A DNA stretch of 64,000 nt. It comes from Marinobacter sp. C7. GTDB taxonomy: Bacteria; Pseudomonadota; Gammaproteobacteria; Pseudomonadales; Oleiphilaceae. The notes under the pieces are model-generated. The model saw nothing but the letters and a program-made list of their open reading frames with translations. It made no database searches and was not told the DNA's origin. Below are positions 25,296 through 40,346 of this stretch, one piece after another. The translations under genes were made by a program, and so were the position numbers. The stretch is from assembly GCF_022343555.1 (NCBI RefSeq), contig NZ_JAKQZH010000001.1:1240001-1304000 (forward strand). The letters are read 5' to 3'. Position 1 is the stretch's first letter. The number at the start of each line of letters is the position of its first letter.

Positions 25296-26261
25296 TCAGG
25301 CGGCCCTGGCCAGTTGGCGCACCCTGTTTTCCAGTTCGATCTGATCGGCCGTGAACCGGCGAATGCCATCAGCGAGTTTCTCGGTGGCCATCGCATCCTC
25401 GTTGGACTCCCAACGGAAAAGTTTTTCGTCGATGGAACCGAACCGGTCGTTGGAGTTTGCGTTGTCCGGGTGTAACTGGCGGTTGAGAGCACCGGAGTCA
25501 TCCTGAAGATTCTGCAGCAGGGCCGGGCTGATGGTCAGTTTGTCACAACCGGCCAGCATCTCGATCTCACCGGTGTTACGGAAACTGGCTCCCATAACCA
25601 CGGTGTTGAAGCCGTTGGCCTTGTAGTAATTATAGATGCGGGTTACTGAAAGCACGCCGGGATCTTCCTCGGCCGGATAGCTGTCGCGCCCGCTGTTGGC
25701 CAGGTGCCAGTCCAGAATGCGGCCGACGAACGGCGAAATCAGGTGTGCACCGGCCTGGGCGCAGGCGGCGGCTTGGATGAAAGAGAACAGCAGGGTCAGG
25801 TTGCAGCGGATCCCTTCCTTCTCCAACTGCTCGGCGGCGCGGATGCCCTCCCAGGTAGAGGCGATCTTGATCAGCACCCGGCTGGTATCCACACCCTGGC
25901 GGTCATAGAGCTCCACGAGACGACGGGCCCGCTCCAGGGTGCCGGCAGTGTCGAACGACAAACGGGCGTCCACTTCCGTGGATACCAGGCCCGGAATCAG
26001 GCCCAGAATCTCCTTGCCCGCCAGAACAGCCAGCATGTCGGTGGCTACCGTAAGCTGTTCCGCATCGGAACCACCGTGCCGCCGGGCTTCAGCCACGGCT
26101 TTGTCCAGCATCGGGCGATAGGCCTCGGAAGCTGCTGCCTTCAGAAGCAGTGACGGATTGGTGGTGGCATCTTCGGGGCGCCAACGGGCGATGGCATCGA
26201 TATCGCCCGTGTCGGCGACCACGGTGGTCATGGTCTTCAGTTGGTCAAGCTTGCTGGTCAT
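25296..26261 (-). CDS. tal: transaldolase
   Basis: A 321-residue classical transaldolase (TalB type) of the pentose phosphate pathway. The Schiff-base Lys132 lies in [10 protein letters not shown], and [13 protein letters not shown] and [10 protein letters not shown] are typical. With the adjacent DAHP synthase it touches the same metabolite, erythrose-4-phosphate, a plausible reason for the proximity. Confidence 0.95.
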
Positions 26262-26378
26262 TCGTCCTGTCGTCCCGGTTGTACGTTGTATCAGGCATCC
26301 ATCTCCGGGGTGCCGGTGTTTTCCCTACAATAACGGGGTGTTCTGACAGGAACAAGACAACAAAAGGTTAGGATTGGG

Positions 26379-27413
26379 TCAGCTTTCGGCAACAGTCTCC
26401 GGCTCAGGCAACCGGACCTTGGCCAGGGCCGCCTGGATGACCTCGAGGCCACTGCCGGGCTTGTGGGCATTTTCACTGATATGGCGCCGGAACTGGCGGC
26501 CACCGGGCATGCCATGGAACAGCCCCATGATATGCCGGGAAATATGGGTGAGATAGACGCCCCGGTCCAGCTCCTGCTGGATGAACGGGAACATCGCTCT
26601 CAGTGCCTCATGTCGGTTTGCCACAGGGCAGGGTTCACCAAAGAACTCCGTGTCCACGCCGGCGAGCAGCCAGGGGTTGTGGTAGGCCTCGCGACCCAGC
26701 ATTACACCATCGGTGTGGCGCATATGCTCGTGGCATTCCTCGAAACTCTTGATACCGCCGTTGATGATGATCTCCAGGTGCGGGTAACGCTCTTTCAACC
26801 GGTAGACCCAGTCGTACTTCAGCGGCGGGATGTCGCGGTTCTCCTTGGGGCTCAGGCCTTCGAGGATCGCGATACGGGCATGTACGATAAAGGTCTGGCA
26901 GCCTGCGGCGGAGACTTTCTCGATGAACTCGCACAGTTCGTCCCAGGACTCCCGGCCGTTGATGCCGATGCGGTGCTTGACGGTGACCGGCAGGTCGGTG
27001 GCGTCAATCATCGCCGCCACACCTTCGGCGACCTTGTCCGGATGGCCCATCAGGCAGGCGCCGATCATGTTGTTCTGTACCCGGTCACTGGGGCAGCCAA
27101 CATTCAGGTTCACCTCGTCGAAACCGAACTGCTCAGCGAGCTTTGCGCAATGGGCCAGCTCGCCCGGATCGCTGCCGCCAAGCTGCAGCGCCAGCGGATA
27201 CTCGGAAGGATCATGGCGCAGGAAGCGTTCGGTATCGCCGTGGATCAAGGCACCGGTGGTCACCATCTCCGTATACAGCAGGGCACGCCGGCTCAGGATC
27301 CGCGCCAGGTAGCGGAAGTGCGGCGTGGTCCAGTCCATCATTGGTGCCACGCAGAAACGGCGGGACAGGCCGGAGTTTTGGCGAACGGCATCCAATGTGG
27401 GAGTTGCGGACAT
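26379..27413 (-). CDS. dusA: tRNA-dihydrouridine(20/20a) synthase
   Basis: A 344-residue FMN enzyme reducing uridines in the tRNA D-loop. FMN-binding start FCVAPMMDWTTPHFRYL, catalytic Cys107 in NVGCPSDRVQ, and SNGGI-like IINGGIKS are present; the CVAPMMDWT version and length favour DusA over DusB or DusC. The 117-base gap to talB holds only a weak TTGTTC/TATTGT promoter-like pair on the minus strand. Confidence 0.93.
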   Translation of the reverse strand: MSATPTLDAVRQNSGLSRRFCVAPMMDWTTPHFRYLARILSRRALLYTEMVTTGALIHGDTERFLRHDPSEYPLALQLGGSDPGELAHCAKLAEQFGFDEVNLNVGCPSDRVQNNMIGACLMGHPDKVAEGVAAMIDATDLPVTVKHRIGINGRESWDELCEFIEKVSAAGCQTFIVHARIAILEGLSPKENRDIPPLKYDWVYRLKERYPHLEIIINGGIKSFEECHEHMRHTDGVMLGREAYHNPWLLAGVDTEFFGEPCPVANRHEALRAMFPFIQQELDRGVYLTHISRHIMGLFHGMPGGRQFRRHISENAHKPGSGLEVIQAALAKVRLPEPETVAES

Positions 27414-27514
27414 TTCGGTAACCTATCTACGGAAAACAGTTGTCAGTACGAGAATCTGAGCGCCATAGTTTAACAGGGTTGGCAGGCTGTTTGCCGTAAG
27501 GCTTTGGCGAAGTC

Positions 27515-28540
27515 TCAGCGCACAAGTCCTTCCAGAACCTCGGCTGCCGGCTTCTCCCGGCATCCCGAGGCGTTCTGCCCACACCACAAGGGTGAAAAGT
27601 CTCCGGAGCCGGTTGCCTCAGCGGCAGCCCGAAGTGGCGCAATGGCACTGGTTGCGAGAGGAAAGGCAGGAGCCTCCGGGGAAACAGGGCCCAGCTCCCT
27701 TATGACACGGTTCACGATGCCCCGGGCTGGCCCGCCGGAGAACAGATTGGTGATTGCGGTATGCCGGGCTTGAGAGCTTTTTAGCGCGTCACGGTGAACC
27801 GGTTTGGTGGTGGCCTCCGGGCAAAGCAGGAATGCCGTGCCGACCTGGGCTGCGATTGCTCCGAGATCGAGTGCAGCTTTCACACACTGCGCATCGGCAA
27901 TGCCACCGGCGGCAATGACCGGCACCTTCACAGCGGCTACGATCTGGGGCAACAGGGCAAAGGTGCCCATCTGCGTGGTCATGTCCCTGGTCAGGAAAAT
28001 ACCGCGGTGGCCACCGGCTTCAAGGCCCTGGGCAATAATGGCGTCAGCACCATGCTGCTCCAGCCAGAGTGCTTCCTCCACCGTGGTCGCAGTCGACAGG
28101 ATCCTGGCGCCCGCTTTGTGCACCCGTTCAACCAGGGCAGGTTCCGGCAACCCGAAATGGAAACTCACCACTGCCGGACGGAACTCCTCCACCAAGGCGG
28201 CGGCTTCTTCATTGAACGGCATCCGGCCCGGCCCTGACGTTATGGAATCAGGATCGATGCCGAATTCCTGATAATAGGGCGCCAGTGACTGGCGCCATCT
28301 CCGCTCGCCGTCCGCATCCGCTTTTGGCGGCGTGTGGGCAAAGAAGTTGAGGTTGAAAGGTCGGTCGGTGGCAGCTTTCAGGGCTTCAAGTTCCGATCGC
28401 AGCGCCTCCGCGCCCAACATGGCGCAGGGAAGAGAGCCCAGGCCACCGGAATTCGAGACGGCGGCGGCCAGCCTGTGATCCTGAACGCCGGCCATGGGTG
28501 CCTGGATGATGGGAAATTCGGTTCCGAAAAAGTTCAGCAT
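27515..28540 (-). CDS. nitronate monooxygenase family protein
   Basis: A 341-residue FMN-dependent TIM-barrel oxidoreductase. IIQAPMAGVQ at the start, a His-containing EQHGADAIIAQGLEAGGHRG and PVIAAGGIAD mark the NMO/2-nitropropane dioxygenase family, which oxidises alkyl nitronates. Start at 28540 is preferred (GGGA 8 bases upstream, homology begins at once); an in-frame start at 28573 exists. Substrate unproven. Confidence 0.88.
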   Translation of the reverse strand: MLNFFGTEFPIIQAPMAGVQDHRLAAAVSNSGGLGSLPCAMLGAEALRSELEALKAATDRPFNLNFFAHTPPKADADGERRWRQSLAPYYQEFGIDPDSITSGPGRMPFNEEAAALVEEFRPAVVSFHFGLPEPALVERVHKAGARILSTATTVEEALWLEQHGADAIIAQGLEAGGHRGIFLTRDMTTQMGTFALLPQIVAAVKVPVIAAGGIADAQCVKAALDLGAIAAQVGTAFLLCPEATTKPVHRDALKSSQARHTAITNLFSGGPARGIVNRVIRELGPVSPEAPAFPLATSAIAPLRAAAEATGSGDFSPLWCGQNASGCREKPAAEVLEGLVR

Positions 28541-28577
28541 AATCTGTTCCCGTTCTTTGGCCCCGATCCTCAAGGCC

Positions 28578-29201
28578 TCACTGCAATGACATTCTCGTTG
28601 CCTGTGCTGCGGTACTGGTCGACCATACCGGATAAGGAATGCCGGCGAGGCGGTTCATCATAAAGGCATGAACGAGTAGCAGGGCGACGCCGGCCATAAG
28701 TATAGGCAGTTGGGCAGGATCCGGCATCAGTCCCAGGGACACAATCAGAGCCGTTGCACCGGCGGGCGGGTGCGCCACCCGCAGCAGCACCATCAGGCAC
28801 CCCGTCAGGCCCAGCGAGAGCGACGCAGCTCCCACCCGGGCCAGATCGACGCCGGTCGTGAAGGCGGAAGCGTGTCCCTGCAGGCCGAAGAGGTACAGGC
28901 TGAGCAGTCCGGCCAGTGCTCCGATCAGATGCCCGCAAAGCGTGTTCCTCGGGGAAGCGGGCTGGGCAAGCGGGACATAGAACAGGATGAAGGCGGTGGC
29001 ACCAAGGGAGGGGAAGATGAAGGCTTCCTGCGTCACCAGGGCCACGAACGACACCAACGCGATGCTGAGACCGCCATTGATCAGGTTGAACACTGCCATC
29101 ACGGTGGTTCGACTGTAACGGCTTGCGAGTCGTTCCAGGTGTAAGGCCTGAACCAGCCCCTTAGCCAGTTGCCAGCGCAGCTGCTCGTTCCTGAGTCCCA
29201 T
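28578..29201 (-). CDS. HPP family integral membrane protein
   Basis: About 207 residues with four or five hydrophobic helices and the family motif AHPPAGATAL, plus FPSLGATAFILFYVPLAQPASPRN. Cyanobacterial HPP proteins transport nitrite; no substrate is known for this one, although it lies next to a nitronate monooxygenase, an enzyme that releases nitrite. The start is uncertain: 29201 has GGA 9 bases upstream, but in-frame starts at 29231 and 29255 exist. Confidence 0.82.
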   Translation of the reverse strand: MGLRNEQLRWQLAKGLVQALHLERLASRYSRTTVMAVFNLINGGLSIALVSFVALVTQEAFIFPSLGATAFILFYVPLAQPASPRNTLCGHLIGALAGLLSLYLFGLQGHASAFTTGVDLARVGAASLSLGLTGCLMVLLRVAHPPAGATALIVSLGLMPDPAQLPILMAGVALLLVHAFMMNRLAGIPYPVWSTSTAAQATRMSLQ

Positions 29202-29310
29202 AGACCTTCCGGTTGCCCTGAATTGGTGCATTGAAAGGCGCGAGATCCTAAACAATGAGGAATATCAAGGCAAACAGGTATTATCGATAATGCTTAACGA
29301 CTCGGGAAAC

Positions 29311-29766
29311 TTATTCTTCCCCTGCGTGGCTGATCAGCACCCCCGGTGCGCCTTGCTCCAACTGTGCCCGGATATGATCCGGAATGGCCACCTTGGACAT
29401 GCTCGATGAGCGGATCATCACATCGGTAATGTCAGCATCAGCAATAAACTGGCCATCCCCGTAGCGATAGAACTCCAGATGCAGGGTGAACGACGTGTTG
29501 CCGATGCGCCCGGTGCGAATCCTTGCCTCCAGCACATCATCAAACCGCGCAGGCGCTTTCCAGTTCACTGTGAGGCTCACTACCTGGACGTCCAGATCCT
29601 GGTCCAGCAGGCGCTGGTAATCACCGAACACGGCCCTGATGTATTCGTTGACGGAAATATCCACGAAATCCGCATAGCGGGCGTTGAAGACGACGCCCTG
29701 GGCGTCGCATTCGCCGTAGCGGACTCGGAAGCGGAATTTGAAAGGGGAGTTGTTGTTTTCAGTCAT
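29311..29766 (-). CDS. acyl-CoA thioesterase, 4HBT hotdog family
   Basis: A 151-residue hotdog-fold protein. The catalytic region YGECDAQGVVFNARYADFVD carries the Asp typical of 4-hydroxybenzoyl-CoA thioesterase relatives. It probably hydrolyses an acyl-CoA in the cytoplasm; chain length is not deducible. It is the last ordinary gene before the accessory module on the other strand. Confidence 0.85.
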   Translation of the reverse strand: MTENNNSPFKFRFRVRYGECDAQGVVFNARYADFVDISVNEYIRAVFGDYQRLLDQDLDVQVVSLTVNWKAPARFDDVLEARIRTGRIGNTSFTLHLEFYRYGDGQFIADADITDVMIRSSSMSKVAIPDHIRAQLEQGAPGVLISHAGEE

Positions 29767-29898
29767 GGTTCACTAGTGCGGTTGAATGAGGTTCAAGGCT
29801 AACCGATTCCCGAGTTGATGCAACTTGGCCATCTCAGGACCTACTGGTAACCTGGTTCGTAATAATGCGGAACGAATTAGTAGTAAGGAAACTGTCCC

Positions 29899-30009
29899 AT
29901 GTCCGATACGCGAGGCTATTACGAAAACAACGCCAAAGCGTTTGTTGAAGCCGTTCTTGATATCGCCATCGATGAGGTCTGTGGTGAGTTGCATCAGCAT
30001 GGAGCATAA
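29899..30009 (+). CDS. 36-residue reading frame upstream of the helicase; possible methyltransferase N-terminal remnant
   Basis: ATG at 29899 has AAGGAA 9 bases upstream and the frame ends with TAA 3 bases before the helicase start, in the same frame. The helicase ribosome binding site GGAG (30001-30004) lies inside it, so translation would be coupled. The peptide (YYENNAKAFVEAVLDI) resembles the N-terminal cap of class I SAM methyltransferases, including YHKNAQKFFNQ of the gene at 33141. It is either a decayed methyltransferase or a leader peptide. I cannot tell which. Confidence 0.5.
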   Translation: MSDTRGYYENNAKAFVEAVLDIAIDEVCGELHQHGA

Positions 30010-30012
30010 CTG

Positions 30013-33000
30013 ATGCAGCAAACCGGAATTTACGAACAGCTAATCACAAAGCTCGTCGAGAGCCGCCTGGATCGGGAAAGGTTCTACGTTGGCGAACGCC
30101 GCCTCAGCAGCGCGGAAGCGTCGATTTGGTTGTCTCGTTTCCTGTCAAATATTCTTGAGTTCGCCATTGAGTCAGTGCCCTCGGGCGACGACCGGCTGCA
30201 AAAGCAGATCAAGTTCTCCAACCAACTGCTAATCTGGTTGAAAGGGCAGATCCAGGACGACGGATTTCTGGAAGAGAATCTTCTTGATAGCCAGGGAAAG
30301 ATTCTGACCGCTCTGTATGAGCTGGATAACCCTGTTGCAGCTAACCTCAAGCAATACGTAGAAGATATTTACCCTCTCACGGGACTTACCCAGAGTGAGT
30401 TGTTCTCGGGAAGTAATGCCGGCCTGTCACTTGAGTCCGAATTGAAAAGAGAAATCCTTTCAGCGGACACGATTTACTGGCTGGTGTCGTTCATCAAGTG
30501 GGCCGGGATTCGTATTTTCAGGAAAGAGCTGGAAGCCTTTACCGCCAGTGGTCGCGAGCTGAAAATCATCACCACATCCTACATGGGCGCGACCGATGCG
30601 AGGGCGGTTGAGTATTTGGCCAGCTTGCCGAACACCGAAGTGAGGCTGAGCTACAACACCGAGCGCGAGAGGCTGCACGCCAAGAGCTATTTGTTCCTCA
30701 GAAATTCGGGCTTTCACACCGGCTATATCGGATCATCAAACCTCTCCCGCTCGGCGTTGACCAATGGCCTTGAGTGGAATCTGAAGATCACGTCTCAGGA
30801 AATTCCGCACATTATCAACAAGTCCCTCAGCACCTTTGAAACCTATTGGGCTTCAGACGAATTTGAGCAGTTTGATGGCCAGGCGGAAAGCGCTGAGAAA
30901 CTCAAGCGTGCACTGAAGCAGCAGAAAGGATGGGATGATGCTGGCGCGGTGCATTTTTTTGATATTACGCCGTTTCCACATCAGAAGGACATTCTGGAGC
31001 AGCTTTCCGTAGAACGGGACGTGCACCGGCGTTATCAGAACCTCATCGTAGCAGCCACAGGTACCGGCAAGACGCTGATTTCGGCCTTCGATTTCCACCG
31101 ATTTCTGAAAGCGAAACCCAACGCCAATTTCCTCTTCGTTGCCCATCGGGAGGAAATCTTGCGACAGGCCCGTGAAGCATACAGGGGCGTACTCAGAAAC
31201 AGCGCTTTTGGCGAGCTATGGGTCGGAGGACAACTGCCTGATCACTACCGCCAGTTGTTCGTATCCATCCAGACGTTAAACAACCAGCTGGATCAGCTCA
31301 AACTGACGCCGGACTACTACGACTACATTGTGATCGATGAGGTGCACCATATCGCCGCATCAAGTTATCGATCAGTCCTCGAGCATTTCTCGCCTTCAAT
31401 CCTGCTGGGGCTGACGGCAACACCGGAGCGGCACGATGGTGGCGATATTCTCGGCGACTTTGGTGGCGTCATTGCGGCAGAGCTTCGCTTGCCAGAAGCA
31501 ATCAACCGTCGCCACCTTTGCCCATTCCAATACTTTGGAGTCGATGACGACACTGATCTTCGCACCATTCCGTGGAATCGTGGTCGTTACGATCCCGTTC
31601 AGCTAACCAACTTGTACACGCACAACCATGACCGAGTAAAAAAGATACTGCGCAGTTTGCGGGAAATCGTCACCGATATAGGCGCCATGAAGGCGCTGGC
31701 ATTCTGTGTGAGCCGCGATCACGCGAATTTTATGGTTCAGCAGCTCCTGCTTCATGGTATCAAGGCTGATGTGCTGACCAGTGACAACAGCCATGAACGT
31801 CAGCAAAAGCAGCAAGCCATTCGGTCCGGGAAGATCAACGTGTTGTGTGTGGTCGATATCTTCAACGAAGGCATCGACATTCCGGAAGTGGATACTCTGC
31901 TGTTTCTCCGTCCCACGGAGAGCTTGACCATTTTCTTGCAGCAGCTTGGCCGCGGTCTTCGGTTGGCCGACGGCAAAGATTGTTGCACGGTACTGGATTT
32001 CGTCGGTAATTCCCGGCCAGAGTATGATTTTGCGAATAAATTCAGAGCGCTAGTGGGTAAGTCTGAACGTTCGATAAGCGACGAACTGAAACAAGGTTTC
32101 CCTCATGCGCCACTGGGTTGCCGGATTGAACTGACCAAGAAAACCCAGGAGATGGTGCTCACTAACATCCGGCAGGCCACTCTGACGCTGAAGCGTCTGG
32201 TTTCGCTGGTTCGCCAGTTTCCTCAGCATTCAACACAGCCGCTGACACTGAAGAACTTTCTAACTCAGCATCCACACATTGATCTCAATGAGCTGTATAA
32301 GCGAGGCAGTTGGTCTGAGCTGGTTAGTAGAGCCAAAGATGAAGAAGTTGATGATGAGTCGCGGTTCAAACTAGCGAAAAAGGGGATCTTCAATCGGATT
32401 TTGATTTGTGACGATCACAAATACCTACTTTTCCTTAAAAGGTTGTGCCAGGCGGGCTTTGTTTGGGATCAGGAAGATAGTCGTCGGGCGCTGATGTGTC
32501 ATTACGATTTCTGGCAAAAAGCTGGATTTGAATTGGGGTTTCAGTCACTTTCCCAGAGCTTGGCCAAACTCAAGAAATTAGGGCTCGAGCAAGAGTTGTC
32601 TGATGTCCTCGATTGGAAGCTGGCGCAGACCAAGCACGAGCAGCCAGTTATGCCGGATTTGCAGCAAGTCCCGTTGCGCCTGCATGCGCGTTATTCTCGA
32701 GAGCAAATTCTGGTTGGATTTGGTGCAATGACATTCGATCACCAGCCCCCGTCAAGAGAGGGCGTTTTTGTGATTCAAGATCAGAATGTCGAGCTATTGT
32801 TTGTCACGTTAGACAAAAACGAAAAGCAGTTTTCACCGACCACCATGTATCACGACTACGCCATAAACGAGCAATTGTTTCATTGGCAGTCGCAAAACAG
32901 CTCCCGGCCCGACCGCGGGAAAGGAAAGGACTATCTTGAGCACGGCTTCAATAACAAGCGACTGTTCCTGTTTGTGAGGGAGCAAACCAAAGATGAATAC

Positions 33001-33144
33001 GGCCGCACGATGGGCTTTGTGAATTACGGCGAGGTCGACTATGTGTCCCACACTGGTTCACAGCCTATGAGCATTACGTGGAAACTCCGTACACCTATGC
33101 CAAACTTTATGTGGCAACAGGCTGCAAAGTTAGCGGTAGCATGA
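30013..33144 (+). CDS. PLD-like / DEVH-box superfamily 2 helicase / DUF3427 protein
   Basis: A 1043-residue cytoplasmic protein. Residues about 140-280 form a phospholipase-D-like domain (H222, K224, then YIGSSN 238-243); position 229, where the classical HKD motif has Asp, is Leu. The helicase core follows: Walker A ATGTGKT 348-354, DEVHH 442-446, LTAT 467-470, and QLGRGLR 644-650. From about 690 to the end is a DUF3427-type C-terminal region. Such proteins resemble restriction or defence helicases. The gene is AT-richer than its neighbours and ends in an ATGA overlap with the methyltransferase-HNH gene. Confidence 0.88.
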   Translation: MQQTGIYEQLITKLVESRLDRERFYVGERRLSSAEASIWLSRFLSNILEFAIESVPSGDDRLQKQIKFSNQLLIWLKGQIQDDGFLEENLLDSQGKILTALYELDNPVAANLKQYVEDIYPLTGLTQSELFSGSNAGLSLESELKREILSADTIYWLVSFIKWAGIRIFRKELEAFTASGRELKIITTSYMGATDARAVEYLASLPNTEVRLSYNTERERLHAKSYLFLRNSGFHTGYIGSSNLSRSALTNGLEWNLKITSQEIPHIINKSLSTFETYWASDEFEQFDGQAESAEKLKRALKQQKGWDDAGAVHFFDITPFPHQKDILEQLSVERDVHRRYQNLIVAATGTGKTLISAFDFHRFLKAKPNANFLFVAHREEILRQAREAYRGVLRNSAFGELWVGGQLPDHYRQLFVSIQTLNNQLDQLKLTPDYYDYIVIDEVHHIAASSYRSVLEHFSPSILLGLTATPERHDGGDILGDFGGVIAAELRLPEAINRRHLCPFQYFGVDDDTDLRTIPWNRGRYDPVQLTNLYTHNHDRVKKILRSLREIVTDIGAMKALAFCVSRDHANFMVQQLLLHGIKADVLTSDNSHERQQKQQAIRSGKINVLCVVDIFNEGIDIPEVDTLLFLRPTESLTIFLQQLGRGLRLADGKDCCTVLDFVGNSRPEYDFANKFRALVGKSERSISDELKQGFPHAPLGCRIELTKKTQEMVLTNIRQATLTLKRLVSLVRQFPQHSTQPLTLKNFLTQHPHIDLNELYKRGSWSELVSRAKDEEVDDESRFKLAKKGIFNRILICDDHKYLLFLKRLCQAGFVWDQEDSRRALMCHYDFWQKAGFELGFQSLSQSLAKLKKLGLEQELSDVLDWKLAQTKHEQPVMPDLQQVPLRLHARYSREQILVGFGAMTFDHQPPSREGVFVIQDQNVELLFVTLDKNEKQFSPTTMYHDYAINEQLFHWQSQNSSRPDRGKGKDYLEHGFNNKRLFLFVREQTKDEYGRTMGFVNYGEVDYVSHTGSQPMSITWKLRTPMPNFMWQQAAKLAVA

Positions 33145-34823
33145 CTTACGCCCCATACCACAAAAACGCCCAAAAATTCTTCAACCAATACCAGTCCCTG
33201 ACCTTCGAGCAGGTCCACGGTGACTGGTTTCCCCTGCTGGACAAGAAATCCGGTCTTGCTCTGGACGTAGGTGCCGGCAGCGGCCGCGATGCACTGGCCC
33301 TGGCGGAGCGAGGTTGGGATGTTGTGGCGGTGGAGCCGGCTTGCGAGTTGCGACGCCTGGGCGAGGCGGCAACAGCACACCGGAGTATCCAGTGGGTGGA
33401 TGATTCCCTGCCGGACCTGAGTGAAATCCGCAAGCTCAGCTACCGGTTTGATCTCATTCTGGTGTCTGCCGTCTGGATGCACCTTCCGCCCAGTTCCCGC
33501 GAGCGGGCGTTCCGAATTCTGACGGAGCTGTTGGCGCCCTCCGGCATGTTGGTGATCACTCTGCGCCACGGGCCGGGGGATGGTGAGCGGAAGTTCTACG
33601 AAGTCACCAAAGCGGAGCTGGACAGTTTTGCCCGCCATCGTGCGGTTATGCCGGTACCGTTACCGGATATACACCGTGCCGATGAACTCAAACGGGCGGA
33701 TGTGTGGTGGGAAACCGCCGTATATCGTCTGCCGGATGACGGCACCGGGGCGTTGCCCACGTTGCGACATATCATCATCAACGACAACAAATTCTCCACC
33801 TACAAGCTCGGGCTGCTGCGAACGCTGGTGCGTATGGCCGACAGTGCGCCGGGGCTGGTGCTGAACCGGTCGGATGACTGGGTGGAACTGCCGCTGGGGG
33901 CAGTGGGTCTGTTCTGGATCATGCTGTATCACCCGTTGGTCTTGAAGCATCACTTGCGGCAGGCGCCGGGTTCCCGTGGGCTGGGCTTTGCGGGGGATGA
34001 TTTTTACGAGCTGGCCAAGTTGTCGCCGCTGGATTTCCGTGTGGGGCTTTCGCTGTCGGCGGAGGTTGCGCCGGTGGTTATGCGGGCTATCAAGCAGGCA
34101 GTGTCTAACATCCTAGATAATCCTGCAAAATACACTACTTGGCCAGGGACCAATCGGCAGATTTTCGAGGGCAGCAAAAGCCGACTGACCATTCGCAGCG
34201 AGACGGTACGGCTGGATAAAGAAACCCTGGCCCGTTTCGGGCGGTTCCGCGTACCGGCCATGCTCTGGGATACCTTCAGCCGTTATGCCTGCTGGGTAGA
34301 GCCGGCGATCGTGAATGAGTGGATCAACCTGATGGGCAGCTGGGAGGCCCGCTACTCGTCGGAGACTTATCACAAGGCGCTGCAGTGGGTAGAAGGGCGG
34401 CGCGATACCTCGGTGGTGCGTAAACTGGTGGAGCAACAGCTGTCGACCGGGCCAGTGGAGTGTGTGTGGACCGCCAGAGATCTTTCCCGGAGCCGCTACG
34501 ACATTGACCACTGCTTTCCCTGGTCCCGCTGGAACAATAACGACCTGTGGAATCTGCTACCTGCTTCCCACACGGCCAATGCTGCGAAGTCCGAGAGGCT
34601 CCCGGCGGATTCCCTGTTGAAACAGGCACGGCCCAGGGTTATCGAGTGGTGGGAGCATGCCATTGTCGGAACAGAACGGGAGCAGCAATTTTACTCGGAG
34701 GCGGAAGCGGCGCTTCCGTTGCTGGGTGAGAGTCGTAGCCTCGACGGCGTATTCGAAGGTATGTTGCAGCAGCGTCTGCGGTTAAAAACCAACCTTCAGC
34801 TGGCTGAGTGGCTTGGTCTTTGA
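33141..34823 (+). CDS. class I SAM methyltransferase fused to a C-terminal HNH endonuclease
   Basis: A 560-residue fusion. Residues 1-190 are a Rossmann methyltransferase with motif I LDVGAGSGRD at 41-50 and a VSAVWMHLPP segment; there is no NPPY or PC motif of DNA base methylases, so it resembles the small-molecule/RNA type. Residues about 205-440 are an unassigned middle region beginning IIINDNKFSTYKLGLLR. The HNH core is DIDHCFPWS (Asp456, His457), Asn471 and NAAKSERLP (Asn480, Lys483). The ATG at 33141 overlaps the helicase stop; the open frame upstream is inside the helicase. GC-rich, unlike the helicase gene. Confidence 0.85.
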   Translation: MTYAPYHKNAQKFFNQYQSLTFEQVHGDWFPLLDKKSGLALDVGAGSGRDALALAERGWDVVAVEPACELRRLGEAATAHRSIQWVDDSLPDLSEIRKLSYRFDLILVSAVWMHLPPSSRERAFRILTELLAPSGMLVITLRHGPGDGERKFYEVTKAELDSFARHRAVMPVPLPDIHRADELKRADVWWETAVYRLPDDGTGALPTLRHIIINDNKFSTYKLGLLRTLVRMADSAPGLVLNRSDDWVELPLGAVGLFWIMLYHPLVLKHHLRQAPGSRGLGFAGDDFYELAKLSPLDFRVGLSLSAEVAPVVMRAIKQAVSNILDNPAKYTTWPGTNRQIFEGSKSRLTIRSETVRLDKETLARFGRFRVPAMLWDTFSRYACWVEPAIVNEWINLMGSWEARYSSETYHKALQWVEGRRDTSVVRKLVEQQLSTGPVECVWTARDLSRSRYDIDHCFPWSRWNNNDLWNLLPASHTANAAKSERLPADSLLKQARPRVIEWWEHAIVGTEREQQFYSEAEAALPLLGESRSLDGVFEGMLQQRLRLKTNLQLAEWLGL

Positions 34824-34935
34824 GCGCTGATTGGCTGCTCGGCCACTTCGCGCTCCGTCAATGAAGGCATAGGCTCTTCCGGGATGGCTGGCTAAGCTAA
34901 AGGGAACAATAACCAGAACGGAGATCGTCCCCCGC

Positions 34936-35745
34936 ATGAGCCAGTCCCGCAAAATCGAATCATCCAGCTCTCCCAGACAGGTTTACATCACTGGCGGCGC
35001 CAGCGGCATCGGCCTCCAGCTTGCGCGGGATTATGCCCGATCCGGCTGCGCGGTTACTCTGTTTGATATTCAGCCAACTGACACTGCCGTTACCGAGCTT
35101 TCCGCCATCCCCGGCGCTGGCCCGGTCCGCGCCTTTGCCCTGGACGTCAGTGATCCCGCCTCGGTCCGGGAGGTGTTCTCCGGGGCTGCGGCGGAGCAGG
35201 GGCCGGACGTGGTTATCCATTGCGCCGGTATCTGCATTGCAGCGCCGTTTGATGAGATCGACGATGATGCCTACACCCGACTGATCAACATCAACCTGCT
35301 TGGGTCGCGGCATGTGGCAGTCGGGGTGTTGCCCCATCTGAACTCCGGTTCCCAGCTGGTGTTTGTGGCTTCCATGGCCGGACTCGTTGGCTGTTACGGG
35401 TATTCAGCGTACTGTGCTTCGAAGTATGCCGTGGTTGGTCTGGCGGAGGTATTGCGTATTGAGCTTGCGCCCCGGGGTATCGATGTGTCTCTGGTCTGTC
35501 CACCCGAGGTGGAAACGCCGATGGTGGTGGAGGAGCGCAAAAGCCGGCCAAAACAGACCGAATCGCTCAAGCTGATGGCGGGCACTTTGCCGGTGGAGCA
35601 CGCGGTTGCGCAGATCCGCCGGGGGATTGATCAGCGCCGGTTCCTGATCATTCCCGGCAAGCGGGCCCGCAGCCTGTGGTTCACCAACAAGCTGCTGCCG
35701 GGCTTCCTGACCCGCCGCCTGGCGGATTTTCTGGTCAGTCAGTGA
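34936..35745 (+). CDS. short-chain dehydrogenase/reductase
   Basis: A 269-residue SDR. NAD(P)-binding TGGASGIGLQLA is near residues 15-26, a Ser (VASMAG) and the YxxxK pair in YSAYCASKYAV form the catalytic set. The C-terminal segment RRFLIIPGKRARSLWFTNKLLPGF is hydrophobic and basic, like membrane-associated SDRs acting on lipids or sterols. Substrate unknown. It begins 112 bases after the nuclease module with ordinary base composition. Confidence 0.88.
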   Translation: MSQSRKIESSSSPRQVYITGGASGIGLQLARDYARSGCAVTLFDIQPTDTAVTELSAIPGAGPVRAFALDVSDPASVREVFSGAAAEQGPDVVIHCAGICIAAPFDEIDDDAYTRLININLLGSRHVAVGVLPHLNSGSQLVFVASMAGLVGCYGYSAYCASKYAVVGLAEVLRIELAPRGIDVSLVCPPEVETPMVVEERKSRPKQTESLKLMAGTLPVEHAVAQIRRGIDQRRFLIIPGKRARSLWFTNKLLPGFLTRRLADFLVSQ

Positions 35746-35832
35746 AGAGATGGATGCAAACCCGGCCGACGGGTAGACTTGCGCGTATTTCCTGAAGACT
35801 TTTATTTTCGTGCAAAAGAATAGGAAACTACC

Positions 35833-36870
35833 TTGGCTATCCGACTGACCGAATTCAGCCACGGCGCGGGCTGTGGCTGCAAGATTGCTCCCGATGTACT
35901 GGATCGCATCCTTCACACCGATGTTCCCGAGTTCAAGGACCCGCGCCTGCTGGTAGGTAACAGTAGCCGGGATGACGCCGCCGTGGCGGACGTGGGCCAT
36001 GGGCTTGGCGTGATCAGCACCACCGATTTCTTCATGCCGGTGGTGGATGATCCGTTCGATTTCGGGCGGATTGCCGCCGCCAATGCCATCAGCGATGTCT
36101 ACGCCATGGGCGGTAGGCCGGTGATGGCTATTGCCATTCTGGGTTGGCCGGTGAACGAACTGGCGCCGGAGATCGCCGCCCAGGTGATCGAGGGTGGCCG
36201 GGCGGTGTGTGCCGAGGCGGGCATTGCCCTGGCCGGTGGTCACAGCATCGATTCGCCCGAGCCGATCTTCGGGCTGGCGGTGACGGGCCAGGTGGCGGTG
36301 GATCGTATTATTCGTAATGACACGGCAAAAGCTGGCGACCTGCTGTATCTGACCAAGCCGCTGGGCGTCGGGATCCTCACCAGTGCATCCAAGAAAGGAA
36401 AGGTCAGTGCGGAGGATCTTGCGGTTGCGGTCAAGAACATGGCGACCCTGAACCGGGTCGGCGAAGCCTTCGCGCAAGTCGAGGGCGTCCATGCCATGAC
36501 CGATGTAACCGGCTTCGGCCTGGCCGGACATCTGCTGGAAATCTGCCGGGGCAGTGGCCTTCGGGCTACCGTAAACCGCGGGGCAATTCCGGTATTGCCC
36601 AACCTGCAGCCCTATATCGACGCAGACTGCATTCCCGGTGGTACCCACCGCAACGCTGCCGCATTTGGCAAGGCTATCGATGGCATGACGGACGCCGACA
36701 AACTGGTGTTCTGCGACCCCCAAACCAGCGGTGGCCTGATGGTCTGTGTGGCCGAGAATAGCCGTGCGGCTTTCGAGGCTGCAGCTCGTGAGCAGGGGCT
36801 GGAGCTGGCCCCATTGGGCCGGCTGGACGCGGCCGGTTCGGCGGAGAGCCTGGTGGTGGTTGAGGACTGA
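35833..36870 (+). CDS. selD: selenide, water dikinase (selenophosphate synthase)
   Basis: A 345-residue SelD producing selenophosphate for selenocysteine or selenouridine. Catalytic Cys14 and Lys17 (HGAGCGCK) align with E. coli Cys17 and Lys20; the residue is Cys, not selenocysteine. ATP-binding [20 protein letters not shown] is intact. The start is TTG with AGGAAA 6 bases upstream; no better in-frame start fits. No selA, selB or mnmH is seen in the window. Confidence 0.95.
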
Positions 36871-36900
36871 TGGCCGGATGCACGCAGTGGAGCGGTTGAT

Positions 36901-37815
36901 ATGCCAGTGATGGTGCAGGCCCTGGTGCCGGTGTTTGTGCTGATCATGCTCGGCCATCTTTTCCGGCGTTGGGATTTCCCCGGTGGCGAGTTCTGGCCCC
37001 AGGCGGAACGGTTTACCTACTACGTGCTGTTTCCGGCCATGCTGGTGTTCAAGCTGGGCCAGGCGAGGTTGCCCCCATCCGCCTACGGTGAGATTGCCCT
37101 GCTGATTTCCTGCATGTTACTGGCGATGACGCTGGCGCTGGTCTTGGCTCAGCTGATCTGGCGTTGGAGCGGCCCGGTTTTTTCCTCGGTGTACCAGGGG
37201 GCTATCCGGTTCAATTCCTACGTCGGCCTTGCGGCCGGTGGCATGCTGTTGGGCGATGACGGCCTCTCCCTGACCGCCATCGCGGTTGCGGTCATGGTGC
37301 CGCTGCTGAATCTGCTCTGCATTCTGATGTTTACCCTGGTGGCGGATCAGGACAAGGTTCGGTTCAGTCAGGTCCTGAAGGCCATCGTCACCAACCCGCT
37401 GATTGTCGGCTCGGTGATCGGGGTGGTGTGGAGTTATTTCCAGATCGGTTTTCACCCGCTGCTGGCGGGGATCCTGCAGCCATTAAGCAATCTCGCGTTG
37501 CCCATGGGCCTGATGACCGTCGGCGCCGGGCTGCAGCTGACTGCCTTGCGTGGGGCATCGATGCCGTTCCTGGTGTCCTCGGCGCTGAAGCTGCTGGCGT
37601 TTCCGCTGATGGCGGCAGGGCTCGCCTGGATGCTGGGCCTCGACGGCCTGATGGTTCAGGTGGCGGTGCTGCTGGCAACATTGCCCACTGCCACCTCTGC
37701 CTACATCCTGGCCCGGCAGCTGGGCGGGGACGCGCCACTGATGGCGGGCATCATCAGCGGCCAGACCCTGCTGGCCATGGCCTCCATTCCGTTAATGCTG
37801 AGTATCCTCTGGTAG
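36901..37815 (+). CDS. AEC family transporter
   Basis: A 304-residue membrane protein with about ten hydrophobic helices in two halves, including FPAMLVFKLGQA, an Asn-containing FNSYVGLAAG and the late PTATSAYILARQLGGD, typical of the auxin efflux carrier family that moves small organic acids. Substrate not deducible. The 3' end overlaps the convergent znuA gene by 24 bases. Confidence 0.88.
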   Translation: MPVMVQALVPVFVLIMLGHLFRRWDFPGGEFWPQAERFTYYVLFPAMLVFKLGQARLPPSAYGEIALLISCMLLAMTLALVLAQLIWRWSGPVFSSVYQGAIRFNSYVGLAAGGMLLGDDGLSLTAIAVAVMVPLLNLLCILMFTLVADQDKVRFSQVLKAIVTNPLIVGSVIGVVWSYFQIGFHPLLAGILQPLSNLALPMGLMTVGAGLQLTALRGASMPFLVSSALKLLAFPLMAAGLAWMLGLDGLMVQVAVLLATLPTATSAYILARQLGGDAPLMAGIISGQTLLAMASIPLMLSILW

Positions 37816-38718
37816 GCATTTGAGTACGGCATCGGCAACGGATTGCTGGAAGTCGAGATAGCCGGTCCTGTTGGCGTCGATGTCCATTGCCAGAGGATCC
37901 CAGGTGCTGAAGGTCACGTTCAGGCCCTCGGTGATGGACCGCCACCACTGTCGGTTGAACTGGGGTTCGGTCAGCAGGCACGGGTGGCTGGCCTCGCGCA
38001 GCTTATTCTGTACCTCTGCGACATGCCGGGCTCCCGGGGAAAGCTCCGGATTGAGAGTCAGCACGCCAGCCAGATCCAGCTCATAATGCTCCGCGAAGCG
38101 GGTGAGGGCGTTGTGATAGGCAAAGACGTCGATCTCTCGAGCCGGCGCCAGCTGCTCGCGAATCGACGCTTCCCGCTCAGTCAGTGCGGCTTCAAACGCA
38201 GCCATATTCTGGTTGATCGCCTGCTGGTTAACGCCTCCCTGTATTACCAGTGCCTGTGCAATATCCCGGGCCATCTCCAGACCCCGCATCGGATCTACCC
38301 AGAGATGCGGGTCCTCGCCTTCGCCATGGTCATGGCCGTGATCGTGCTCCTGTTCTTCGTGATGTTCATCCCCGTCAATTTCCTCTCCGGAGAGCGCGAT
38401 GGTGCGCCCCCGGAAATCGTCTGCCGATAGCAGACGGATCAGGAAGGATTCCATCTCCGGGCCCACCCAGAAGATCAGGTCCGCATTCTCCAGCGCGCGC
38501 CGCTGGGATGGACGCATGGTGTAGTTGTGAGGACTGGATCCCGGCGGTACCAGGGTCGTGACCTGGACGTCCTCGGTGGCTACGGCTCGAACCAGCAGTT
38601 CCACCGGTTTGATGGAGGTGACCACCTTCACCTCGGCGTTTGCGGGCGTGGCTGTGATAACAGTGGCGGTGAAGAGAGCAGGTGCGAGGGATCGACCCAC
38701 ACGGGACAAGAGTGACAT
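37792..38718 (-). CDS. znuA: zinc ABC transporter periplasmic binding protein
   Basis: A 308-residue cluster A-I binding protein. Signal peptide ends at PANA, then EVKVVTSIKPVELL. Zinc ligands His64 (SSPHNY) and His138 (DPHLWVDP) and a His/Asp/Glu-rich loop at about 119-138 characterise ZnuA. ATG at 38718 has AGGAAG 7 bases upstream. The permease and ATPase (znuB, znuC) and zur are not adjacent. A Zur-type palindrome precedes it. Confidence 0.94.
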   Translation of the reverse strand: MSLLSRVGRSLAPALFTATVITATPANAEVKVVTSIKPVELLVRAVATEDVQVTTLVPPGSSPHNYTMRPSQRRALENADLIFWVGPEMESFLIRLLSADDFRGRTIALSGEEIDGDEHHEEQEHDHGHDHGEGEDPHLWVDPMRGLEMARDIAQALVIQGGVNQQAINQNMAAFEAALTEREASIREQLAPAREIDVFAYHNALTRFAEHYELDLAGVLTLNPELSPGARHVAEVQNKLREASHPCLLTEPQFNRQWWRSITEGLNVTFSTWDPLAMDIDANRTGYLDFQQSVADAVLKCLPEDTQH

Positions 38719-38750
38719 TGTCGGGCTTCCTGAAGCTGTGCTGATTGAAA

Positions 38751-38765
38751 TGTTATAATATAACA
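38751..38765. promoter_or_regulatory. Zur-type operator upstream of znuA
   Basis: TGTTATA-A-TATAACA is a perfect 15-base palindrome, flanked by GAAA and AATAG. It fits the gammaproteobacterial Zur consensus GAAATGTTATA-TATAACATTTC. It lies 32 bases before the znuA start and so probably over the promoter; it is also about 50 bases from the gltX -10. Confidence 0.8.
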
Positions 38766-38817
38766 AATAGGCCCGGGCCGCCAATGGGATGATCATGCGA
38801 AATCGGTGGCGTGCCGG

Positions 38818-38823
38818 TATAAT
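38818..38823 (+). promoter_or_regulatory. -10 element of gltX
   Basis: A perfect TATAAT 42 bases before the gltX start; no good -35 is at the usual distance. Predicted leader is about 35 bases. Confidence 0.45.
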
Positions 38824-38864
38824 GCCGGCTTTATCAAATGGCCACCGACATTTCAGGAAGGTTT

Positions 38865-40346
38865 ATGACTGTACGTACCCGAATTGCTCCATCCCCTACC
38901 GGAGATCCACACGTTGGTACCGCCTACGTGGCCCTGTTCAATCTGTGCTTTGCCCGTCAGCACGGTGGGCAGTTCATTCTGCGCATCGAAGACACGGACC
39001 AGGCGCGCAGTACTGCAGAATCCGAACGGGATATCCTGCAGGCACTGCGCTGGTTGGGGCTGAACTGGGATGAAGGCCCCGATGTGGGTGGTCCCCACGG
39101 CCCCTACCGCCAGTCCGAGCGCAAGCACATGTATGCCCAGTATGCCGAGGATCTGGTAACGGCCGGGCACGCCTTCTACTGCTTCCGCACACCGGAGGAG
39201 CTGGATGCGATCCGGGAGGAGCGCAAAGCGAAGGGGATGAACCCGGGCATCAAGGGTGACCTGGAGTTGTCTCAGGAGGAGGTGCAGCGCCGTCTCGACG
39301 CCGGGGAAAAATACGTTATCCGAATGAAAGTGCCGGATGAGGGTGTCTGTGAGATCGATGACATGCTGCGCGGCACCATCGAGATCGACTGGAGCCAGGT
39401 CGACTGCCAGATCCTGCTCAAGTCCGACGGCATGCCCACTTACCATCTCGCCAATGTGGTGGATGATTACCTGATGGGTATTACCCATGTACTTCGTGGT
39501 GAGGAATGGATCAACTCTGCACCCAAGCACAAGCTCCTTTACCAATACTTTGGCTGGGACATGCCGGTGCTGTGCCACCTGCCACTGCTGCGTAACCCGG
39601 ACAAGAGCAAGCTGTCGAAGCGCAAGAACCCCACCAGCATCAATTTCTATGAGCGCATGGGTTTCCTGCCGGAGGCGGTGACCAACTACCTGGGCCGCAT
39701 GGGCTGGTCCATGCCCGATGAGCGGGAAAAGTTCACCCTGGACGAGATGATCGAAAACTTCGATATCCAGCGGGTGTCCCTCGGTGGTCCGGTCTTTGAC
39801 GTCGAGAAGCTGCGCTGGCTCAACGGTCACTGGCTCCGTGAAGAGCTGAACGAAGAACAGTTCATGGAACGCATGCGCCAGTGGTGGTTCAACGAGGATG
39901 CCCTAAAGGCTCTGGTGCCGCATGTGCAGGGCAGGGCGGAAGTATTCTCCGACGTGGTACCCATGTCCCAGTTCATGTTCTCGGGCATGCTCAACCTGAC
40001 CCCGGAGGACTTCGCCCACAACAAACTGGAGGAGGCCCAGATCAAGCGAGTGCTCCAGTTCGCACTCTGGAAGCTGGAGGCCGAGCGGCACTGGAGCAAG
40101 GAAAACATCTTTGCCGACATCAAGGGCCTGGCCAAGGCAATGGAGCTGAAGATGGGCGATTTCATGTTCCCGATCTTTGTGGCGATTGCCGGTACCCCGA
40201 ACTCCTGGTCTGTTATGGATTCCATGGCCCTGCTTGGACCGGACATGACCCGTTCACGGTTGCGCCATGCCCTCGAGGTTCTGGGCGGTTTCTCCAAGAA
40301 AGAAACCAAGAAAGTGGAGAAGGAATACGCCGCGCTGGGTGCGTAA
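38865..40346 (+). CDS. gltX: glutamyl-tRNA synthetase
   Basis: A 493-residue class I synthetase charging tRNA-Glu. The HIGH region reads [15 protein letters not shown] at residues 9-23 and the KMSKS loop [13 protein letters not shown] at 38865 gives [13 protein letters not shown], the standard N-terminus, with AGGAAGG just upstream; an in-frame ATG at 38838 is less likely. Its cognate tRNA-Glu is encoded 200 bases downstream, though behind a separate promoter. Confidence 0.96.

Follow-up and report, generated by a model that had tools for sequence, protein, structure and literature searches.

A window of 64,000 nucleotides from Marinobacter sp. C7 (contig NZ_JAKQZH010000001.1, positions 1,240,001 to 1,304,000; source genome, G000, of 4.06 Mb) was analyzed for a pair of adjacent genes, here designated P1 and P2, that encode a PLD-helicase protein and a methyltransferase-HNH protein. 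The original prediction, made from the letters of the window, had described the pair as a candidate defense module in which a nuclease-motor protein is coupled to a methyltransferase-nuclease protein and in which the stop codon of the first gene overlaps the start codon of the second. The open reading frames (ORFs), Pfam matches and an ATGA overlap of the two genes bore out this gene layout, and the ATGA overlap was kept in all 15 related loci checked. Features of the two genes are given below in positions of the window, with the evidence for each in parentheses.

30013..33144, + strand: P1, predicted SauUSI-like type IV restriction enzyme of 1043 aa (Pfam, PADLOC, PDB match)
30517..30822, + strand: P1 PLD-like nuclease domain, residues 169-270, with HxK at 222-224 and GSSN at 240-243 (Pfam PLDc_2)
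30964..31431, + strand: P1 superfamily 2 (SF2) helicase domain 1, ResIII/DEAD, residues 318-473, with Walker A GTGKT and DEVHH (Pfam)
31660..31965, + strand: P1 SF2 helicase domain 2, Helicase_C, residues 550-651, with QQLGRGLR (Pfam)
32563..33120, + strand: P1 DUF3427, residues 851-1036, presumed reader of modified DNA (Pfam)
33141..33144, + strand: ATGA overlap of the P2 start codon and P1 stop codon (ORFs)
33141..34823, + strand: P2, methyltransferase-helical domain-HNH protein of 560 aa (ATG start, Pfam, alignment)
33141..33728, + strand: P2 class I methyltransferase domain, residues 1-196, TehB/UbiG-like fold (Pfam, Foldseek)
33729..34460, + strand: P2 middle domain, residues 197-440, mostly helical, well conserved and without a Pfam family (alignment, model)
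34461..34655, + strand: P2 HNH nuclease domain, residues 441-505, nearest solved folds being Cas9 HNH domains (Pfam, fold comparison)

P1 was found to match PLDc_2 (36.5 bits), ResIII (136.6 bits), Helicase_C (49.7 bits) and DUF3427 (106 bits), as well as the PADLOC model mREase_IV PDLC03659 with 757 bits over positions 15-942 of its 945. The PLD and helicase parts (residues 142-672) matched the solved structure of SauUSI (7clg) with an E-value of 5e-81. Since the PADLOC match is near full length and the SauUSI match extends over the PLD and helicase parts, P1 is by sequence a probable SauUSI-like type IV restriction enzyme and thus of a known kind, and a reading of it as belonging to no named system was not supported. 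In an alignment of 33 rows (the window, two copies of the window and 30 relatives), HAK and GS(S/A)N were present in every row, and Walker A, Walker B, the SAT motif and motif VI were conserved with few changes (in two rows DEVHH reads DETHR, and the SAT motif is altered once, in locus L005). Motifs kept in these 33 rows of P1 and in 61 sequences of P2 reveal that the two genes are products of neither chance nor decay.

SauUSI is described in excerpts of PMC7913695 as a dimeric, ATP-driven enzyme that recognizes 5-methylcytosine (5mC) or 5-hydroxymethylcytosine in a degenerate site by means of a C-terminal domain of SRA fold, and that shreds the DNA between sites. P1 shares with SauUSI the PLD nuclease with HxK and GSxN, the SF2 motor and the C-terminal DUF3427, and by analogy may act like SauUSI, including the recognition of modified cytosine. 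The two proteins differ in that the N-terminus of P1 is about 100 residues longer and the DUF3427 part of P1 falls outside the aligned stretch; furthermore, SauUSI acts as a single protein, whereas the gene of P1 overlaps one for a methyltransferase-HNH protein. SauUSI homologues with small MutT-like genes next to them have been described (PMC7641849). In the open-access literature, no methyltransferase partner or fusion of SauUSI/DUF3427 enzymes was found, nor was the architecture of P2. PbeA, CglI and NgoAVII likewise combine an HKD/PLD nuclease with an SF2 restriction part (excerpts of PMC10853773 and PMC7913695); the cytosine methylases of some loci related to these systems are C5 or N4 DNA enzymes, by contrast to the methyltransferase of P2, which is of another class.

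It is P2, not P1, that is new here. Pfam matches were detected to Methyltransf_23/25 (residues 34-141) and HNH_4 (residues 445-488), and the alternative GTG start reported by the ORF lister (581 aa) is not used by most homologues. Residues D456, H457, N471, N480 and K483 of the HNH domain were invariant in the 61 aligned homologues, by which the nuclease has an intact active site. Fold neighbors of P2 by Foldseek were TehB, UbiG, CmoM, METTL6 and similar, with methyltransferases among the 50 matches listed for the whole model; the model of the C-terminal part gave no Foldseek match below E 0.001. After strand 4 (residues 100-125), neither the DNA-methyltransferase motif IV [SDN]PP[FYW] nor the C5 motif PC was present in any of the 61 P2 sequences, and [SDN]PP[FYW] was absent throughout all 24 sequences of a form reduced to the methyltransferase (methyltransferase-only). 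That the methyltransferase of P2 is of the kind usual in restriction-modification systems such as type II/IIG is therefore not supported. All three parts of P2 were under purifying selection (dN/dS of 0.02-0.15 where dS was finite; 12 comparisons).

The middle domain of P2 is a possible DNA reader. A profile search of the PDB with this domain returned only chance matches (haemoglobin, E 0.09). A one-row lead to a sulfur-binding domain (SBD) was unsupported by profile comparison with SBD sequences; the comparison with ScoMcrA-type SBD-HNH enzymes gave a probability of 1%, and the corresponding NF045808 model (284 positions) includes SBD and HNH parts only, without a methyltransferase domain.

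The pairing of the two genes was examined in 124 Marinobacter genomes (genomes and loci are given below by G and L numbers). Close homologues of P1 (84-99% identity) were present in 24 of these genomes and P2, whole or partial, in 47, a patchy distribution unlike that of core genes. The two co-occurred in 21 genomes compared to 9.1 expected (Fisher p 4e-8, uncorrected for kinship). Two of the 24 P1 genes (G084 and G095) were set aside as cut by contig ends. By coordinates, P2 or its methyltransferase domain was the gene right after P1 in 20 of the 22 that could be assessed: 16 copies were full length, three were methyltransferase-only (G065, G081 and G096) and one was broken behind the methyltransferase (G104), with none of the 20 retaining the HNH domain without the methyltransferase. 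Directly after the remaining two P1 genes, in the place of P2, lay a disrupted N-terminal piece of P2 or of its methyltransferase:

L082:6970-7113 (genome G116): remnant with 79% identity over residues 1-48
L084:7382-7735 (genome G077): remnant with 37% identity over residues 1-125 and in-frame stops

On account of these remnants, the genes appear to have long been paired in the genus and the pairing to have decayed at least twice. The nearest named relatives of the locus by P2 are Marinobacter loci (92-95% identity).

The pair lies between two genes that serve as markers of the site and is preceded by a short ORF:

29311..29766, - strand: thioesterase-like gene, left flank (site marker)
29899..30009, + strand: ORF of 36 codons, left over from the N-terminal end of another class I methyltransferase; the 1280-aa fusion of G043 described below opens with a related sequence
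34936..35745, + strand: SDR-like gene, right flank (site marker)

The first base of the short ORF is where the module had been taken to begin, and the ORF had been left undescribed. Its identity to the N-terminus of the G043 fusion is 55% across 31 residues, and that to a 93-aa remnant ahead of McrBC in G117 is 65%. The ten flanking proteins (25299-40343) had no PADLOC match at E 0.001, in agreement with the ordinary flanks proposed earlier; designations such as thioesterase, NMO, SDR and selD are based on our own reading of their sequences. GC content was 0.511 for P1 (0.604 at third positions), 0.595 for P2 (0.709) and 0.56-0.63 for the other genes measured, by which P1 looks like a newcomer and P2 like a resident.

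The same site was found to hold different genes in sister genomes. In G117, the thioesterase and SDR genes enclose McrB, McrC and a P2 that is 93% identical to that of the window, with a gap of some nine bases between McrC and P2. McrB, McrC and P2 also stand in a row in G021, elsewhere than the site of the window. McrBC, a type IV enzyme, thus takes the place of P1 before P2, although it is an unrelated machinery of AAA GTPase and PD-(D/E)XK nuclease. A third arrangement was revealed by 26 further Marinobacter genomes with a divergent PLD-helicase, the matched part of which has 36-43% identity to P1. Among ten of these that were fetched, eight encode a single chain of 1280-1291 aa with a methyltransferase first (26-29% identical to that of P2), followed by the P1-like PLD-helicase and DUF3427; in the other two, the methyltransferase was split off by a frame change or the protein was short and near a contig end. 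A Pfam scan of one of the eight fusions detected methyltransferase, PLD, SF2 helicase, S24-like and DUF3427 domains. The G043 fusion (1280 aa) is flanked by the thioesterase and SDR genes that also enclose P1 and P2 in the window, such that this site carries a methyltransferase-SauUSI fusion, P1 with P2, or McrBC with P2. Genomes with the fusion type (26) and genomes with P2 (47) did not overlap, compared to 9.9 expected (p 6e-7, uncorrected for kinship). The content of the site hence differs between sister genomes, which supports the original prediction; an empty site was not among the 10 regions fetched.

At a second Marinobacter site (L014, L018, L021, L083 and L117), the genes to the right of P2 are shared, and the left side alternates between SauUSI, McrB-like and C5 methyltransferase genes.

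Neighbors were counted within two genes (1.5 kb) by use of our own ORF picking, with labels assigned by similarity to a short reference set. The list of scored partners is short, and the loci were gathered by P2, lean on Marinobacter and do not include all plasmid matches. Among 80 distinct full-length P2 rows, neighbors were SauUSI-like in 16, C5 methyltransferase in five, DUF3883 in four, McrBC in four, and PDC-S10 and prokaryotic Argonaute (pAgo) in one each. The Argonaute gene lies ahead of P2 in Nitrincola; PDC-S10 is a PADLOC candidate, as is PDC-S36, a DUF3883/NOV_C protein. For 24 methyltransferase-only rows, the neighbor was SauUSI-like in nine, DUF3883 in six and none of those scored in nine. 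Counted by distinct loci, the methyltransferase-only form was near a SauUSI-like gene in 9 of 27 and near a DUF3883/NOV_C gene in 6 of 27 (together 15 of 27), where 27 includes three loci beside clpB (L164, L166 and L169) missed by ORF picking, which also missed the short pieces or remnants of L066, L082, L084, L093 and L094. PDC-S36/DUF3883 is thus a recurrent neighbor of both P2 and the methyltransferase-only form, and is a separate, often divergent gene with no PLD or helicase. The class without a scored partner includes L025, in which McrB and McrC are four and five genes from P2, L159, which has a separate HNH gene adjacent, and L167 and L168, which have dnd genes.

A Pfam tally was made of proteins upstream of P2, with P1 loci and duplicates excluded. 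The 37 proteins picked by script were amended by hand to 40 (L057 and L083 dropped; L027 replaced by the neighboring C5 methyltransferase; L031, L033, L034, L035 and L047 added). NOV_C was detected in seven of the 40 and C5 methylase in four (one being the L027 replacement), with single cases of McrC, AAA_5, Mrr, AIPR, Piwi, TIR and others. Restriction genes are frequent neighbors of P2 elsewhere, which supports the original prediction. In a fairer sample at the class level, in which P2 rather than P1 was used as bait in 369 genomes with that of the window left out, three of six methyltransferase-only genes adjoined a SauUSI-like gene and a fourth was two genes from a fragment of one. When mapped on a tree built from 104 distinct methyltransferase domains, the state 'SauUSI-like neighbor' required 13 gains or losses, at least seven of which were forced by well supported branches; full length versus methyltransferase-only required 11 changes, at least six of them forced.

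The SauUSI-like proteins beside the methyltransferase-only genes of L131, L134 and L135 (the three scanned) have an S24-like domain that is absent from P1, and that of L134 is also without a DUF3427 match. In these proteins and in the G043 fusion (L170:10869-14711), the S24 (LexA-like) peptidase domain lies behind the helicase, and it could make such enzymes responsive to DNA damage.

Type IV enzymes are by definition modification-reading nucleases without a methyltransferase of their own. The explanation that we favor, tentatively and with a confidence slightly short of even, is that P1 and P2 form a two-gene restriction unit in which P1 shreds modified foreign DNA and P2 is its helper; as such a unit, the two genes would likely protect the cell from phages and other foreign DNA. 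P1 would recognize modified foreign DNA, run along the DNA on ATP and shred it, the methyltransferase of P2 would set or edit a mark that spares host DNA, and the HNH domain would add cuts. Because the methyltransferase domain accompanies nucleases that are unrelated to one another (PLD, McrBC, DUF3883 and HNH), the methylation of one particular partner protein is disfavored, and DNA or some feature that all partners share is the most likely methyl acceptor. These nucleases are of different folds yet of the modified-DNA kind, and their association with the domain is best explained if the methyltransferase product matters to self recognition, whether it marks DNA or is a shared substrate at the nucleotide level. 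Where another nuclease accompanies P2, its HNH arm seems to be optional. We read this as a modular methyltransferase arm that serves modified-DNA-type nucleases. More broadly, it is possible, albeit with doubt outweighing belief, that these loci represent an unnamed restriction class in which a non-canonical TehB-like methyltransferase arm is plugged into SauUSI-like, McrBC or DUF3883 nucleases or its own HNH domain, as a separate gene, an HNH fusion or a SauUSI fusion, such that 'type IV' members would not be lone cutters but would be paired with a modification activity by which an undescribed DNA mark is made or edited. Given a methyltransferase that is found repeatedly next to SauUSI-like proteins or within them, and that stays in place when the nuclease is a different one, it becomes testable whether type IV enzymes are paired with a modification activity or controlled by one. 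This would also alter how many 'methyltransferase domain-containing' genes beside DUF3427 or McrBC genes are read; at least 3310 database proteins match P2 at E <= 0.001, although for many the match may be confined to the methyltransferase part.

Several observations weigh against the two-gene unit, and many of them favor its strongest rival, which we consider unlikely: that P2 is a self-sufficient, one-protein defense gene in sites where type IV genes come and go, and that P1 works alone. No scored partner was found within two genes for 49 of the 80 full-length P2 rows, three more full-length P2 loci that ORF picking missed (L046, L050 and L064) are without a P1-like gene, and in the class sample none of five full-length copies (one cut by a contig end) adjoined a SauUSI-like gene. 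P2 occurs under many phylum labels, largely in metagenome bins, the labels of which may be wrong and which account for many of the distant loci. Outside Marinobacter, relatives found with P1 as bait were without a P2-like methyltransferase in all seven class-level loci (about 1.5 kb of flank) and in all four annotated plasmid records, a fifth record, also without it, having only the last third of P1; the P1 subtype thus does not need P2, since it stands alone in 11 of 11 such loci. The pair of P1 and P2 as such is confined to Marinobacter plus two cases (L032 and L068) in which a P1-like gene and P2 diverge head-to-head (15 of 69 loci), and within Marinobacter 3 of 22 P1 genes (G104, G116 and G077) are followed by a disrupted P2 or have lost it. 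Whether the two families neighbor each other elsewhere therefore has a divided answer: the pair itself hardly extends beyond the genus, but SauUSI-like, McrBC and DUF3883 genes are repeatedly found next to the methyltransferase domain. The GC contents of P1 and P2 suggest that they may have come separately. In addition, five of the 80 rows adjoin a C5 methyltransferase and no scored type IV gene, three methyltransferase-only relatives in Azospirillum lie beside clpB, outside a defense setting, and the methyltransferase of P2, devoid of a DNA-methyltransferase motif, resembles small-molecule, tRNA or protein enzymes. Against the self-sufficiency of P2 stand an overlap conserved in 15 of 15 loci and a pairing in 20 of 22 plus two remnants, methyltransferase-only forms that adjoin SauUSI-like genes even without the HNH domain, and the fusion of methyltransferase and SauUSI-like parts in a single chain.

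A further point against the two-gene unit of a modified-DNA nuclease and its helper came from C5-cytosine methyltransferases, which were present in 7 of the 24 P1 genomes compared to 8.9 expected (p 0.48). Avoidance of these enzymes, considered as a sign that P1 depends on 5mC, was thus not seen for P1; by contrast, it was detected for genomes with the divergent PLD-helicase (4 of 26 compared to 9.6 expected, p 0.012) and for both types together (11 of 50, p 0.005). G000 had no C5 methyltransferase at E 1e-15, which is compatible with 5mC-dependent cleavage. With regard to the reading of modified DNA, this comparison is indecisive.

The lack of avoidance in P1 genomes would suit a true restriction-modification pair, in which P2 methylates host DNA and P1, with the HNH domain, cuts DNA without the methyl group, P1 then not being modification-dependent. 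Such systems usually have a methyltransferase beside their nuclease or fused to it, and CglI and NgoAVII are restriction-modification systems that also use PLD nucleases and SF2 ATPases (excerpts of PMC7913695). This arrangement is nevertheless improbable, as [SDN]PP[FYW] is missing from all 61 P2 and 24 methyltransferase-only sequences, PC is missing from the 61, and P1 relatives elsewhere have no such methyltransferase adjoining them, which would be lethal unless one were encoded elsewhere in the genome. Most improbable is a role outside defense, in which P2 modifies a metabolite or RNA and its HNH part functions in repair or genome maintenance, for although the fold neighbors of P2 and the methyltransferase-only relatives beside clpB would fit it, the patchy presence (47 of 124), the restriction genes as recurrent neighbors and the invariant HNH residues in 61 homologues do not.

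Known multi-gene systems were also compared to the pair. DISARM is defined by DrmA and DrmB. The DISARM likeness suggested by the original prediction was not sustained, as neither protein was among the matches of P1 (best 25 of 33) or P2 (5 of 5) and the flanks were free of PADLOC matches; the only DISARM match among those listed was DrmC, with 22 bits to the PLD part of P1. MADS is a set of mad1-mad8 genes. The methyltransferase domain of P2 matched positions 270-431 of the 492 of mad2 with 44 bits, and three methyltransferase-only forms matched it with 36-53 bits. Membership of MADS was rejected, since P2 matches only this C-terminal part of mad2, the match ends with the methyltransferase, and no other mad gene was detected in P1, P2 or the ten flanking proteins.

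Full-length P2 was not confirmed in viruses, with 45 stretches of viral_contigs fitting the pattern and none verified, and one methyltransferase-only relative was detected in 50,697 phage records. Escherichia phage phi458 has a methyltransferase-only relative (L102:2917-3516, 39% identity) near its integrase, a typical place for cargo genes. In L159:6848-8649 (G450), a methyltransferase and an HNH protein related to the C-terminus of P2 are two adjacent genes, like a split P2. On the Rhizobium plasmids of L167 and L168, a methyltransferase relative of 334-340 aa with an N-terminal extension lies in or beside dnd phosphorothioation clusters and adjoins a DGQHR/DndB-like gene. A protein of about 449 aa with no Pfam or PADLOC match (L010:6374-7720, L104:112-1479 and L106:3-600) is beside P2 in one genome and near a P1-like gene in two.

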